From NCBI GenBank assembly GCA_003218135.1, contig QHNQ01000036.1, forward strand, positions 1 through 32,594: a stretch of 32,594 bases of DNA, read 5' to 3'. Under the pieces are notes generated by a model. It was not told the origin of the DNA. It was given only the letters and a program-made list of their open reading frames with translations, and searched no databases. Numbering within the stretch: the first letter of the stretch is position 1; every line of letters begins with the position of its first letter. The translations under genes and the position numbers were made by a program. Below, piece by piece: positions 17,218-21,256 of this stretch. Source of the DNA: Verrucomicrobiota bacterium. Its GTDB lineage: Bacteria > Verrucomicrobiota > Verrucomicrobiia > Chthoniobacterales > UBA10450.

Positions 17218-17301
17218 GCCGGCGTGGCGGAATTGGCAGACGCGCTGGACTCAAAATCCAGTGGCCGCAAGGCCGTGTGGGTTCGAGCCCCTCCGCCGGC
17301 A
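17218..17301 (+). tRNA. tRNA-Leu (CAA)
   Basis: An 84-base class II tRNA. Acceptor GCCGGCG pairs with CGCCGGC. The anticodon stem CTGGA/TCCAG encloses loop CTCAAAA with anticodon CAA. The variable arm (GGCCGCAAGGCC) and T arm GTGGGTTCGAGCCCCTC are in place. The discriminator is A and no CCA is encoded. Confidence 0.96.
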
Positions 17302-17510: not shown

Positions 17511-17556
17511 TAATTGGGAACTTCGCGTTTTGTTTCCTGTAGGAAATAATAGATCA
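17511..17556 (+). promoter_or_regulatory. Putative ECF-type promoter of the sigma-factor gene
   Basis: GGAACTTCGCGTTT (17517-17530) is followed after two bases by TTTCCTGTAGGAA (17533-17545). The block recurs at 20666-20694 with 27 of 29 core bases identical. GGAAC is the classical -35 core of ECF promoters. The TTCCT-GT-AGGAA inverted repeat would overlap the -10 region and could be an operator. It lies about 70 bases before the sigma-factor start. Confidence 0.65.
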
Positions 17557-17612
17557 GAGGTCGCGCAAAAAGACGACTACGAACGGCCCTGCACTTGGCA
17601 TTTTCTGCTTGT

Positions 17613-18416
17613 ATGGCGAAGGGAAGACCACAATGTTCATTCGTGAACGGGAAGAACGGCCACGCGGATGCAGACGGACCGCATGATTTTGTAACTACCC
17701 GCTGGAGCTTGATTCTTTCGGCCGCGAAGTCGGACAATCAGGAACAAGATGCGTGCAACGCGCTAGCCGAGCTCTGCCGGACTTATTGGCGGCCCATATT
17801 CTCATTTGTTTGCGCACGTGGCCATTCGACAGAGGATGCGCAGGACCTCACGCAGGATTTTTTTGCGATCATACTAAAGGACAACTGGCTGCAGCACGCA
17901 GATCGCAGCCGGGGCCGGTTTCGTTCGCTCTTGCTCAAGTCACTTCAAAACTTTCTCATTAATGCCACCGAGAGAACTCATGCGCGTAAGCGTGGCGGTG
18001 AGGTGGAATTTGTTTCATGGGACGACTGGGCAGCGGAAGAGCGGTCGCATCTATCTCTCTCCGCGCGCACGCTCGATTCGCTACCGCCGGAGCGAGTGTT
18101 CGATCTTACGTGGGCTACAACGGTGGTAGAACACGCGCTTCAACGCTTGCGCGAAGAATGCGAAAGCAAAGGCAAGCTCTGGCTTTTCCAATCGCTGAGC
18201 CGCCACCTGACAGAGGAACGCGATGAAGTGTCATATGCCGGCCTTTGCTCGGAACTGGGAGTGGCAGAGACTGTGGTGAAAAAACAACTGCACAAGATGC
18301 GGCAGCGTTACCGGTCCTTGCTGCGCGCCGAAGTTTCGCGCACGGTCGACAATCCCGCCGACGTGGACGACGAAATCCGTTACCTGTGTGCGTCACTCGC
18401 AACAGGAACCGAGTAA
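17613..18416 (+). CDS. ECF-type sigma factor linked to a Ser/Thr kinase
   Basis: The 267-residue sigma-70-family protein is longer than classical ECF factors. Region 2 is seen as CRTYWRPIFSFVCARGHSTEDAQDLTQDFF (about 55-84), followed by RGRFRSLLLKSLQNFL. Region 4 (about 206-235) reads VSYAGLCSELGVAETVVKKQL, then HKMRQRYRSLL. The FVTTRWSLIL opening and this pattern match the STK-associated ECF groups abundant in Planctomycetota, Acidobacteriota and Verrucomicrobiota. No anti-sigma gene adjoins; the partner is the kinase starting five bases after its stop. In such systems the kinase is thought to control the sigma factor by phosphorylation. The ATG at 17613 is chosen; an in-frame TTG at 17595 and a GTG at 17643 are alternatives, none with a good Shine-Dalgarno. 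Confidence 0.9.
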   Translation: MAKGRPQCSFVNGKNGHADADGPHDFVTTRWSLILSAAKSDNQEQDACNALAELCRTYWRPIFSFVCARGHSTEDAQDLTQDFFAIILKDNWLQHADRSRGRFRSLLLKSLQNFLINATERTHARKRGGEVEFVSWDDWAAEERSHLSLSARTLDSLPPERVFDLTWATTVVEHALQRLREECESKGKLWLFQSLSRHLTEERDEVSYAGLCSELGVAETVVKKQLHKMRQRYRSLLRAEVSRTVDNPADVDDEIRYLCASLATGTE

Positions 18417-18421
18417 TTGCA

Positions 18422-20473
18422 ATGACAGATTCACATCTACGCTCCGATCCACTTCCAAGCGCTACCAAAGAGCACACAAAATGCGAGAGGTGTGGAGCAA
18501 CCATGCGACTCGACACCGGAGTTTGCGTGAGTTGCCTCCTGCGCGAGGGGTTGGAAGGCGGTGATGAGGTTTCTCACGTGTTTTATCAGAGCGTTCTCGC
18601 CGAGGTGGACGCGCCGCACAAGTCGTGGTTCCTGGGAAATTACGAAATTCTCGAGCAGATCGGTTGCGGCGGCATGGGCGTGATCTATCGCGCCAGGCAA
18701 CGACATACTCGCCGCATCGTCGCGGTAAAGCGCGTCCTTAGTTATCGCGCTGATTCACCCGGAGCACTGCAGCGTTTCCGACGAGAAGCACAGGCGATTG
18801 CCAGTCTGGATCACCCGAACATCCTCCCGATTTACGAAGTGAGCGAAAGCGAGGACGGGCTGCCGTTTTTCAGCATGAAGTTCGCAGAGAAGGGAAGTTT
18901 GCACGAGAATGCGGCTTCTCTGCGCGACCAACCGCGGAAGTCCGTTGAACTCATGGCAAAGGTCGCGAGTGCTGTTGAATACGCGCACAGCCGTGGAGTG
19001 CTCCATCGCGACCTTAAACCGGGGAACATTCTACTCGACGATCGCGACGAACCATTGGTGAGCGATTTCGGTTTGGCAAAACTACTGGACGCCGACAACG
19101 ATCTTACACGGTCGCTGACTACGTTCGGAACCGCAGGTTTTATCGCCCCCGAACAAGCCGGTCACGCAGCGGTCGATTTTACCCCAGTTGCCGATGTTTA
19201 CAGTCTCGGCGCAGTTCTGTTCAACGTGCTTGCCGGACGTCCACCATTCCTGGGTTCCAATCCGGTTTCCGTGATTCGCCAAGCATCTGAAACGCAGGCG
19301 CCTAAATTACGCTCGCTGGCGCCATCGCTCGATCGAGATTTGGAGACGATTTGTGCACGCTGTCTCGAACGTGATCCAAAAGCGCGCTACCAGGCCGCCG
19401 GAGACCTCGCAGCTGATCTGGAACGGTGGCTTGATGGTCGTCCGATCATTGCCCGCCCGGTTTCACCTCCAGCGCGGATCTGGCGCTGGTCGCGTCGTAA
19501 TCCGAAATTGGTTGCCGCGGGCATTGCGGGTCTTGTATTCGGCGCGACTGCGGTCTCGTTCTTCCGCGGTGATGTTTTTCGAGCGTCGCAGTTTAATCCG
19601 CCTGACAAGACTATTGCAGTTTTGCCGTTCAGCGATGTTAGCGAGACCACAAATCAGGGATACAAGCGCGCCGTTCCGGTTTCCGCGCACGAAGAACCCG
19701 GCAATGGCGTATACGACCTTTATCTACAGCGGCCGTTCGCGGATGTAACTCATCCGACAGGAATAACCGGTACCGGAATTAGCGTGCCCGTACAGAATCC
19801 AGTTATTCCATTCACAGTTCCGGATTCCACCTCTCCGGCAGATTCCGACACGCGCCGCCCGGAGACTCGCGTGACCGCTGCGCCTCCAGAGACGGGAGTC
19901 ACTACCGGTGTGCGTGATCGCGCATCGGAAGCCGGTCTGCGAACGAACAAAATTACAGCGGACGTCAGCGGTGCGCCTCCAGGGACGGGAGTTACTACCA
20001 GTGTGCGTGATCGCGCATCGGAAGCCGGTTTGCGAACCAACAAAATTACAGCGGACGGGCCAGCGTCCATTCAGGGGTTTGTCAAAGATCCAAAAGGCGA
20101 TCCGATTAAAGGCACAGATGTTCGGATCGAATCGCGAGACGGGAAACAGGTGTTCAGCACAGTTAAGACCGACTCAAAGGGCCGCTATATTTCACAGGGA
20201 CTCCAACCGGGTGTTTACCGGGTAACATTGCTTGTGAATGGCGCGGTCAAGGCTTCGATCATGAACACGCAGACCAAGGCGAATCAACCGACTCAGCTAA
20301 ATTTCGATTTCAAGCCCACATCCCAGGCAGGTAACAACACAACGGGCCGAAAGCATATGGTATGGGTGCCAAATCGTACCGGGAGCCATATCGGCGGTAA
20401 TTGGGTCGAAGTCGATGACGAGGGAAACCCGCATTTCGATTCCAACGTTCAGACATACAACGTTCGTCGTTGA
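18422..20473 (+). CDS. Transmembrane Ser/Thr protein kinase with C-terminal carboxypeptidase-regulatory-like domain
   Basis: The 683-residue kinase starts with a zinc ribbon (Cys21, 24, 35, 38). The kinase domain (about 74-337) is complete: G-loop GCGGMG (81-86), Lys103 in AVKRV, HRDLKPGN (195-202), DFGLAK (215-220) and APEQ (242-245). One membrane segment (about 363-381) is followed by a short KTIAVLPFSDVS piece. That piece looks like the start of the TolB/FlgO-like domain common in such kinases, but it breaks off after about 12 residues. Then come a low-complexity region, a 31-residue repeat in two copies (about 487-545), a carboxypeptidase-regulatory-like beta domain (about 548-632) and a tail KHMVWVPNRTGSHIGGNW. 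The last two parts are near-duplicates of the secreted protein encoded at 20723. The catalytic domain is cytoplasmic and the C-terminal domain presumably outside, as a sensor. It is in an operon with the sigma gene. Confidence 0.92.
   Translation: MTDSHLRSDPLPSATKEHTKCERCGATMRLDTGVCVSCLLREGLEGGDEVSHVFYQSVLAEVDAPHKSWFLGNYEILEQIGCGGMGVIYRARQRHTRRIVAVKRVLSYRADSPGALQRFRREAQAIASLDHPNILPIYEVSESEDGLPFFSMKFAEKGSLHENAASLRDQPRKSVELMAKVASAVEYAHSRGVLHRDLKPGNILLDDRDEPLVSDFGLAKLLDADNDLTRSLTTFGTAGFIAPEQAGHAAVDFTPVADVYSLGAVLFNVLAGRPPFLGSNPVSVIRQASETQAPKLRSLAPSLDRDLETICARCLERDPKARYQAAGDLAADLERWLDGRPIIARPVSPPARIWRWSRRNPKLVAAGIAGLVFGATAVSFFRGDVFRASQFNPPDKTIAVLPFSDVSETTNQGYKRAVPVSAHEEPGNGVYDLYLQRPFADVTHPTGITGTGISVPVQNPVIPFTVPDSTSPADSDTRRPETRVTAAPPETGVTTGVRDRASEAGLRTNKITADVSGAPPGTGVTTSVRDRASEAGLRTNKITADGPASIQGFVKDPKGDPIKGTDVRIESRDGKQVFSTVKTDSKGRYISQGLQPGVYRVTLLVNGAVKASIMNTQTKANQPTQLNFDFKPTSQAGNNTTGRKHMVWVPNRTGSHIGGNWVEVDDEGNPHFDSNVQTYNVRR
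19879..20057 (+). repeat. 93-base tandem repeat inside the kinase gene
   Basis: Two copies (19879-19964 and 19972-20057) lie at a spacing of 93 bases, i.e. 31 codons, and differ at only a few bases. Each encodes TGVTT-VRDRASEAGLRTNKI and flanking residues. The high identity points to recent duplication. Confidence 0.9.
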
Positions 20474-20580
20474 TGGTGTTGAAAACGGCTACGACGAAGG
20501 GACGACCAAACGTCAAAGGTCGTGATTGGGACGTCGCTTTGAGAAAACGCTTCTAATCTGTAGCCACGCCCTGCGGGTTG

Positions 20581-20611
20581 TGTGATCGCGCCTCATAGAG
20601 GCGCGGTCACA
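20581..20611. terminator. Strong hairpin between kinase and secreted-protein genes
   Basis: TGTGATCGCGCCTC and GAGGCGCGGTCACA pair over 14 bases (one G-T) with a 3-base loop. It follows the kinase stop by about 105 bases and precedes the second ECF-type promoter block. The lack of a T-run leaves open that it is a dispersed palindrome rather than a true terminator. Confidence 0.5.
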
Positions 20612-20659
20612 GCAATAGTCCACTCGCGGAAACTTCGTTTTTTCCCTGATTCGGCAAAT

Positions 20660-20705
20660 TATTTCGGAACTTCGCGTTTCATTTCCTGTAGGAACTAGTG
20701 AATCA
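20660..20705 (+). promoter_or_regulatory. Putative ECF-type promoter of the secreted-protein gene
   Basis: GGAACTTCGCGTTT (20666-20679), two bases, then TTTCCTGTAGGAA (20682-20694) repeats the block before the sigma gene almost exactly. AT-rich flanks and a trailing ATCA are also shared. The gene start follows 28 bases after the block. Confidence 0.68.
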
Positions 20706-20722
20706 TCAAAATATATTCACTT

Positions 20723-21256
20723 ATGTTTATTAAATCATTGCAGATTGGGTTCATGGGGTTGTTTCTCTGTGTTGCGAACGCCTGGGCTGGGCCGTCAAGC
20801 ATTCAGGGGGTCGTTACGGACATCAAAGGGCAACCGATTAAAGGCGCGGATGTTCGGATTGAATCGAAAGATGGCAAACAGGTGTTCGCCACGGCCAAGA
20901 CCGATGGAAAGGGGCGCTACATTTCACAGGGCCTGCAACCGGCCGTCTACCGGGTGACGCTGATGGTCAACGGCGCGGTTAAGGCGTCGATCACGAATAC
21001 AAAAACCAAGGCCGATCAGGTGACACAACTCAATTTTGATCTAAGACCATTGCCAGCCGCGCAAGTAAAAGCCGCGGAAAAGAAAGGCAAACACATGGTC
21101 TGGGTACCGCCCTCGACGGGAACCCACACGGGCGGCCACTGGGAAGAGGTTCCCGACGGCGCAACCAGCGCAGGCTCGTTGAACGTCCAGCGAGCCAACG
21201 CCGAAGCATTCCAGCGCCAAGCGCAAACCATGGGTTCGGGCGGAACTGGCAGGTAG
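20723..21256 (+). CDS. Secreted carboxypeptidase-regulatory-like protein, paralogue of the kinase C-terminus
   Basis: The 177-residue protein has a signal peptide (1-22, ending NAWA before GPSS). A carboxypeptidase-regulatory-like beta-sandwich domain (about 26-110) begins SIQGVVTDIKGQPIKGADVR and contains GKGRYISQGLQPAVYRVTL. The tail has KHMVWVPPSTGTHTGGHW and a Gln/Ala-rich C-terminus. Nearly the whole domain and the KHMVWVP tail match the kinase residues 548-664, also at the DNA level, so one arose from the other by duplication. Such domains are structural, binding or plug-like, not enzymatic. Position and shared promoter-like block suggest that it is a target of the sigma factor and perhaps a ligand or competitor for the kinase sensor (inference). 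Confidence 0.88.
   Translation: MFIKSLQIGFMGLFLCVANAWAGPSSIQGVVTDIKGQPIKGADVRIESKDGKQVFATAKTDGKGRYISQGLQPAVYRVTLMVNGAVKASITNTKTKADQVTQLNFDLRPLPAAQVKAAEKKGKHMVWVPPSTGTHTGGHWEEVPDGATSAGSLNVQRANAEAFQRQAQTMGSGGTGR

Follow-up and report, generated by a model that had tools for sequence, protein, structure and literature searches.

The window considered here (the whole stretch of 32,594 nucleotides, part of a 2.75-Mb assembly that is 86.65% complete) appears to carry a local module of an ECF sigma factor and a Ser/Thr kinase whose receptor is built from the module's own output. I propose that this receptor arose by the collapse of an operon, that it shares a partner with the output, and that the output feeds back on the signal, a reading to which I give a probability of about 0.55. 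The layout of the locus bears out the earlier note, which had placed open reading frames for a sigma factor, a kinase, and a secreted protein in this order, with five bases between the stop of the first and the start of the second:

17218–17301, + strand: tRNA-Leu(CAA) (ARAGORN, Rfam), directly 5' of the sigma/kinase module and outside the circuit
17517–17545, + strand: ECF-type promoter-like motif 5' of the sigma gene
17613–18416, + strand: predicted ECF sigma factor, 267 aa from the annotated start
18422–20473, + strand: membrane Ser/Thr kinase, 683 aa, with a chimeric ectodomain; ATG at 18422
18641–19396, + strand: protein kinase domain, kinase residues 74-325 (Pfam)
19508–19564, + strand: putative transmembrane helix, the lone hydrophobic segment 3' of RRNPK, residues ~363-381 (read from the sequence)
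19604–19717, + strand: remnant of a FlgO/TolB-like domain in the kinase
19736–19963, + strand: TonB-dependent receptor fragment in the kinase, 76 aa (tblastn/blastp 59-62%, E 1e-19 to 7e-25)
19964–20056, + strand: end of the receptor fragment, repeated in tandem (DNA, read from the sequence)
20054–20464, + strand: captured mature secreted domain with KHMVWVP tail, kinase residues 545-681
20666–20694, + strand: ECF-type promoter-like motif 5' of the secreted gene
20723–21256, + strand: free, predicted secreted protein, 177 aa: signal peptide, CarboxypepD_reg beta-sandwich, KHMVWVP...TGTHTGGHW tail
20723–20788, + strand: putative signal peptide of the free secreted protein (signal-peptide-like start, read from the sequence)

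Eight of the 14 close sigma loci likewise have this tRNA-Leu(CAA) sequence, whole or partial, 5' of the sigma gene.

The kinase domain is clearly matched (Pkinase, 3e-47), with its catalytic residues legible in the sequence: K103, HRD at 195-197, and DFG at 215-217. It is the other end of the protein that resembles the secreted protein, a likeness that the earlier note had seen and that holds up. CarboxypepD_reg (PF13620) is found in both (kinase residues 549-629, 2.4e-13; secreted protein residues 26-108, 4.4e-14), both carry KHMVWVP, and kinase residues 545-681 are 66% identical to residues 22-160 of the secreted protein (E 6.8e-53), the DNA being 65% identical over 136 codons. Within its own genome the secreted protein matches these two copies only. 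The tail follows the pattern KHMVWVP...TG(S/T)H.GG.W in each of them, and across 19 free and kinase copies V126 and W127 are invariant, while T132, G133, H135, G138, W140, and E142 are nearly so.

AF2 gives the secreted protein a beta-sandwich core from about residue 25 to 108 (pLDDT 71-91 by block) and a tail with no usable fold (pLDDT below 50). PDB matches of the model are the transthyretin-like domain of carboxypeptidase D and CnaB-type domains. With PF13620 and a modelled transthyretin-like sandwich, the secreted protein is predicted to belong to CarboxypepD_reg. The model of the whole kinase is poor (mean pLDDT 36.9), the captured domain being the exception. The FlgO/TolB-like domain is mostly lost from the kinase of the window, is longer in those of genomes G055, G070, G072, G076, and G078, and is absent from that of G080.

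Kinases bearing the captured domain occur in 10 of the 35 genomes of the genus: the window, G052, G055, G063, G064, G070, G072, G076, G077, and G080 (contig ends cut the kinases of G052, G063, and G077, and the frame of the G064 kinase is broken). Because the kinase copies, ten in all, group in a single clade (95/95) nested among 25 free copies, I take the domain to have been captured by the kinase once. Such a tree lends no support to several independent captures, nor to continuing conversion between the copies on the kinase and the free ones. The free copy keeps close company with the fused kinase, as the earlier note would have it: at 8 of 9 testable loci (G077 is left out of the count), a free copy preceded by the promoter-like motif lies on the same contig within about 2.3 kb. 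In G070, the free copy is found on a different contig, and a motif-bearing Kelch gene stands where it would otherwise be. A search at the level of the order found matches to the secreted protein (E ≤1e-15) in 47 of 213 genomes, all within the window's family, and the viral contigs searched held no relative. G050 (L048:1-2829) carries secreted copies in a tandem array, two of which have motif sites of their own; duplication of this kind would be needed for the fusion.

The origin of the chimera is best seen in four close sigma loci, those of G078, G001, G065, and G009, whose kinases are not fused. TPR repeats are found in the kinases of G001 (by Pfam), G065 (by BLAST), and G078 (read from the sequence), and the G009 kinase is split in two pieces. 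In all four loci a TonB-dependent receptor (PF00593 and PF07715) lies 3' of the kinase, followed in G078 and G001 by a free secreted gene, in G009 by a Kelch gene (the free copy there being 5' of sigma), and in G065 by other motif-bearing genes, with no free copy at the locus. The earlier note had counted it against the circuit if close relatives should have homologous kinases with unrelated C-termini and no free domain beside them. The first half of this is what these four relatives have; the second is not, for a motif-bearing free copy is still present in three of the four. Because homologous kinases of close relatives have unrelated C-termini, the fusion is, as far as the sequences tell, a derived event at the level of the genus and not an ancestral design.

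The linker of the fused kinase points back to the same operon. It matches residues 373-448 of the G065 receptor (59%, E 7e-25) and residues 378-452 of the G001 receptor (62%, E 1e-24), the receptor of G078 itself being a poorer match than these two. Identity to the receptor fragment is 54-71% in five of six kinases compared, and the G080 kinase gives no match to it. At the level of DNA, the G070 linker is 77% identical to receptor over 178 bp (E 3e-34). A tblastn scan finds the fragment in 8 of the 10 fused kinases, the exceptions being G080 and G052 (the contig of the latter begins beyond this point). Of 61 loci scanned, only the four non-fused ones have a whole receptor. The end of the fragment, read from the DNA, is repeated two to four times, and the secreted domain then follows, from the N-terminus of its mature form on. 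By these matches, the ectodomain of the kinase consists of two pieces, first part of a TonB-dependent receptor and then the secreted domain in its mature form. Pieces of kinase, receptor, and secreted protein thus follow one another as the genes do in the unfused loci, the pattern expected from deletions within such an operon, and I infer that the chimera is a collapsed operon that once ran sigma, TPR-kinase, TonB-dependent receptor, secreted protein. That a receptor persists at the window locus was considered and rejected, the fragment alone being there; two receptors 75% identical to that of G078 lie on other contigs of the window genome.

What might a kinase do with such an outer domain? 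One view is that the free secreted protein is itself the ligand, and that homotypic contact activates the kinase (autoinduction) or inhibits it (end-point control). A domain and tail common to both copies, the tail residues invariant or nearly so, are what one would expect of this arrangement, and so is a free gene adjoining the fused kinase at eight of nine loci. However, the free copies have a helix-like extension at the C-terminus that the kinase copies are without, and the four non-fused relatives use the same promoter with a kinase that has no such domain. I consider sensing of the product itself unlikely. It is possible, and I put it forward tentatively, that a whole sensing operon spanning the envelope has collapsed into sigma factor and chimeric kinase, such that the cell would read the outside amount of either its own secreted protein or that protein's free target; it would then have an extracellular feedback, or a meter of a public good, wired straight to a dedicated sigma factor.

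Another view is that the outer part is the relic of a deletion accident, mostly tolerated baggage, and that the kinase is constitutive or works through its remaining domains. Substitution rates bear on this. For the captured domain, dS is 0.08-0.24 (10 pairs from five species, G080 apart; 0.47-0.60 with G080), as against 0.22-0.95 in sigma and 0.70-1.66 in the free copies of the same species, and dN/dS is about 0.25-1.25 (10 pairs). Differences at the three codon positions are 0.097/0.084/0.118 in the captured domain, 0.038/0.033/0.195 in the kinase domain, and 0.198/0.175/0.455 in the free copies. With dS so low and the differences so nearly even over codon positions, the captured domain is, on this evidence, either young or the product of a recent exchange, and its constraint is weak. 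Throughout the 3' half of the kinase gene (19562-20464), dS between species is far below that of the adjoining sigma gene and dN/dS is raised, which suggests a recent exchange between species or altered selection. An overlapping reading frame was considered as the cause of the low dS and rejected, no alternative frame being open in all five kinases (a stretch of 260 codons).

The near-flat substitution over codon positions is what baggage would show, and the variable number of linker repeats and the FlgO/TolB-like domain, eroded in the window and missing from G080, fit as well. It is too much to expect, however, that baggage would spare the sites conserved in the free copies: at 31 columns invariant in those copies, the kinase copies have 13 changes where 33 are expected (P 0.0013; compared were 9 kinase copies with 18 free ones, after 8 of 35 rows had been dropped as distant, cut, or duplicate). 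Nor would it be expected to remain readable, yet the frame is open in the six complete fused kinases, and in eight kinase copies with at least 185 substitutions there are no internal stops, against 6.6 expected under neutrality (the stop in G063 is the natural end of the gene, not an internal one). The fusion, moreover, has been kept in 10 of 35 genomes. That the outer part is mere baggage therefore seems doubtful.

The strongest feature of the locus is one that the earlier note passed over. A 29-bp motif, GGAACTTCGCGTTT(TG/CA)TTTCCTGTAGGAA, lies 5' of both the sigma gene (68 bases from the annotated start) and the secreted gene (29 bases from the start), and the two sites are identical at 27 of 29 positions. 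By chance, no shared motif of 29 bp is expected (100 shuffles), and these two are the only sites in the 2.75-Mb assembly when up to three mismatches are allowed. The consensus has the geometry GGAACTT-N15-GTAG with an AT-rich stretch 5' of it, a spacing that I take to be that of ECF promoters. Over the family (83 genomes), the 29-mer with up to three mismatches occurs 14 times, in 11 genomes, and its reversed control not at all. The exact 26-bp core has 20 sites in 14 of the 83, and with only 1 to 3 of them per genome, the earlier note's description of the circuit as self-contained is apt. Thirteen of these 20 precede free secreted genes, three precede genes of secreted Kelch proteins, and one precedes the sigma gene of the window; one more precedes a gene of a Lactonase-type propeller protein, and two precede unclear genes. 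With up to one mismatch, the core is found at 44 sites in the 83 genomes, against 9 for the reversed pattern.

Autoregulation by the sigma factor is not a general feature, since the motif precedes the sigma gene in 1 of 14 close loci, that of the window; in the other 13, the best site has 5-7 mismatches over 16 fixed letters. The motif was likewise rejected as a general property of the secreted family. At 40 loci of diverged secreted paralogues (33-54% identity), motif-like sites are found in just two (L190 and L202), a sigma gene in one (L190, with its site), and a related kinase in one other (L175).

The motif instead goes with the sigma clade. Over the 83 genomes, 11 have both the exact motif and a sigma factor of the clade (membership assigned from identities and the tree), 3 the motif alone, 3 the sigma factor alone, and 66 neither (Fisher P 7e-9, uncorrected for relatedness). 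The motif stands without a clade sigma in G050, G063, and G069, and the sigma without an exact motif in G079, G077, and G001. Contig ends account for some of these mismatches, as the contigs of G077 and G079 stop inside the kinase and that of G063 begins inside it; G001 carries TTCCGGTAG in place of TTCCTGTAG. Paralogous ECF sigma/kinase loci of the family (L130-L148, including L131, L133, L135, L136, and L138) have sister motifs in which TAG is preceded by different letters (TT, GT, CG, GC) and which mostly lie 5' of genes for exported proteins. At L133, four sites of the same variant precede four different genes. There seems to be a family of local ECF regulons in the window's family. A second locus of this kind in the window genome (L164) has a sigma factor 57% identical and a kinase of 957 aa, and no motif-like site was found there.

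A tree was made of 48 sigma proteins, of which 29 were labelled and 19, without a site, excluded (sites with at most one mismatch and a start codon at most 170 bp away). On it, the letters of the -10 take six states with five changes, the minimum. In 1000 shuffles of the states, the mean is 16.5 changes and the lowest 12. The surrounding letters are fixed by the search pattern, and therefore the evidence is the two free letters alone. The elements found are those of a predicted ECF promoter: GGAACTT as -35, a spacing of about 15 bp to the -10, and specificity for the sigma clade. It could be argued that the 29-bp motif is instead an operator for some other regulator, and the inverted GGAA...TTCC arms inside it would suit one. 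An operator, however, gives no reason for a constant spacing like that of ECF promoters with an AT-rich stretch 5', nor for two free letters that follow the clade of the neighboring sigma, nor for four sites of one variant before four different genes at L133, and I think it quite improbable. Given the shared motif, its recurrence before the free copies of relatives, and -10 letters that track the sigma clade, the secreted gene is probably an output of the window sigma factor, and the earlier note's suggestion to that effect gains strong support in silico.

The sigma factor itself matches Sigma70_r2 (PF04542) above cut-off (Pfam, 1.7e-5), PF07638 (Sigma70_ECF) at 19 bits, under the cut-off of 21.1, and TIGR02937 at 36.2 bits, under that of 42.9. 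From its sigma-70 regions, it is classed as a sigma factor of the ECF type. It is of the kinase-linked kind: a membrane Ser/Thr kinase lies 5 bp 3' of it, the loci of relatives have the same order, and there is no anti-sigma gene beside it (5' neighbors judged by ORF reading). Ten of the 14 close loci have a TTTATGCTTGTAT-like element close to the start annotated for sigma (at most two mismatches; 17590-17650 in the window). Its conservation suggests a second, conserved promoter and a start at GTG 17643; this conserved GTG is perhaps likelier to be the true start, giving a protein of 257 aa.

Among known systems, the kinase-linked sigma factors of ECF43 are close to this one. In the pairs EcfK/PknS of Xanthomonas citri and EcfP/PknT of Vibrio parahaemolyticus, a transmembrane Ser/Thr kinase activates the adjacent sigma factor, according to the accessible parts of the sources (PMC13147305; PMC8999054). 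The kinase phosphorylates the sigma factor directly (PMC13147305, in part), and region 2.2 is without the acidic DAED motif, a phospho-Thr standing in its place (PMC8999054, in part). The window too has an ECF sigma gene beside a transmembrane Ser/Thr kinase, but region 2.2 of its sigma factor retains an acidic DAQD, which puts it outside ECF43. The accessible text of the review also describes kinase-linked groups ECF59, 61, 62, 217, and 283, with a kinase neighbor and an acidic region 2.2, and leaves the mechanism of their activation open (PMC8999054). The window sigma was compared with these groups on the kinase neighbor and acidic region 2.2 alone, and for them and for it, unlike ECF43, phosphorylation in region 2.2 is not to be assumed.

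The earlier note knew of no kinase carrying a copy of its regulon's secreted product. For ECF43 kinases this stands, none being described in the accessible parts of the two sources (PMC13147305; PMC8999054). The claim must nonetheless be narrowed, because RsgI6, a sigma regulator in the membrane of Clostridium thermocellum, already has an outer GH10 domain 57% identical to Xyn10D, whose promoter is recognised by SigI6 (PMC4711584, in part). The outer domain of the window kinase is similarly homologous to the secreted product of its own sigma factor's predicted regulon. The two differ in that RsgI6, in the part of the source available, is an anti-sigma factor with a polysaccharide binder derived from an enzyme, where the window has a kinase, on which Pfam finds no RsgI_N domain. 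That part reports neither an origin by operon collapse nor a receptor fragment (PMC4711584). BlaR1 is a second likeness: its outer sensor domain is homologous to class D beta-lactamases, and it induces a secreted beta-lactamase (PMC5957439, in part). BlaR1 differs from the window in signaling through a metalloprotease, with no sigma factor. Its sensor and the enzyme induced belong to different beta-lactamase classes.

The relatives from before the fusion call to mind Fec (FecI/FecR/FecA), at least in the partial sources seen, in joining an ECF sigma factor, a membrane regulator, and a TonB-dependent receptor. They differ from it in having a kinase in place of an anti-sigma factor of the FecR type, and on the four receptors Pfam finds plug and barrel only, with no N-terminal signaling domain. 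The window locus, with just a 76-aa fragment of receptor, is not of the Fec type. The open-access literature searched yielded no ECF sigma/kinase/TonB-receptor operon like this one.

By analogy with RsgI6 and BlaR1, I prefer the reading of a shared target, in which the kinase and the free protein probably bind the same thing, much as has been proposed for RsgI6. The proposed sequence of events is as follows. Deletions would have reduced an older operon of several genes to a single receptor kinase, and another copy of the secreted gene would have kept its promoter. The outer domain of the kinase would bind the same extracellular partner (a polymer, a surface, or a protein) as the free secreted protein does, and binding would activate the kinase, which would then switch the sigma factor on by phosphorylation. 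The sigma factor would transcribe the secreted gene and, in the window, its own gene as well. As free protein accumulates, it would take up the partner, and the signal would be damped. Several observations weigh against so tight a design: the weak constraint on the kinase copies, a motif 5' of the sigma gene at the window alone of 14 close loci, genomes that have the motif or the clade sigma but not both, and a FlgO/TolB-like domain that the window kinase has mostly lost.

The locus belongs to uncultured bacteria of the soil and offers a case, open to test, in which a sensor at the cell surface appears to be made of its own output. It may also be a dated, stepwise example of how a sensor gains a ligand-binding part through deletion in its own operon, with intermediates that persist in related genomes. 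The pairing of ECF sigma factor and Ser/Thr kinase, common in Verrucomicrobiota yet little studied, becomes testable here, since there are predictions for promoter, regulon, and receptor domain alike, and the system is small enough to be rebuilt in E. coli. If it is true that the free copy modulates the kinase, then the level of output would be wired directly, at the molecular level, to transcription.
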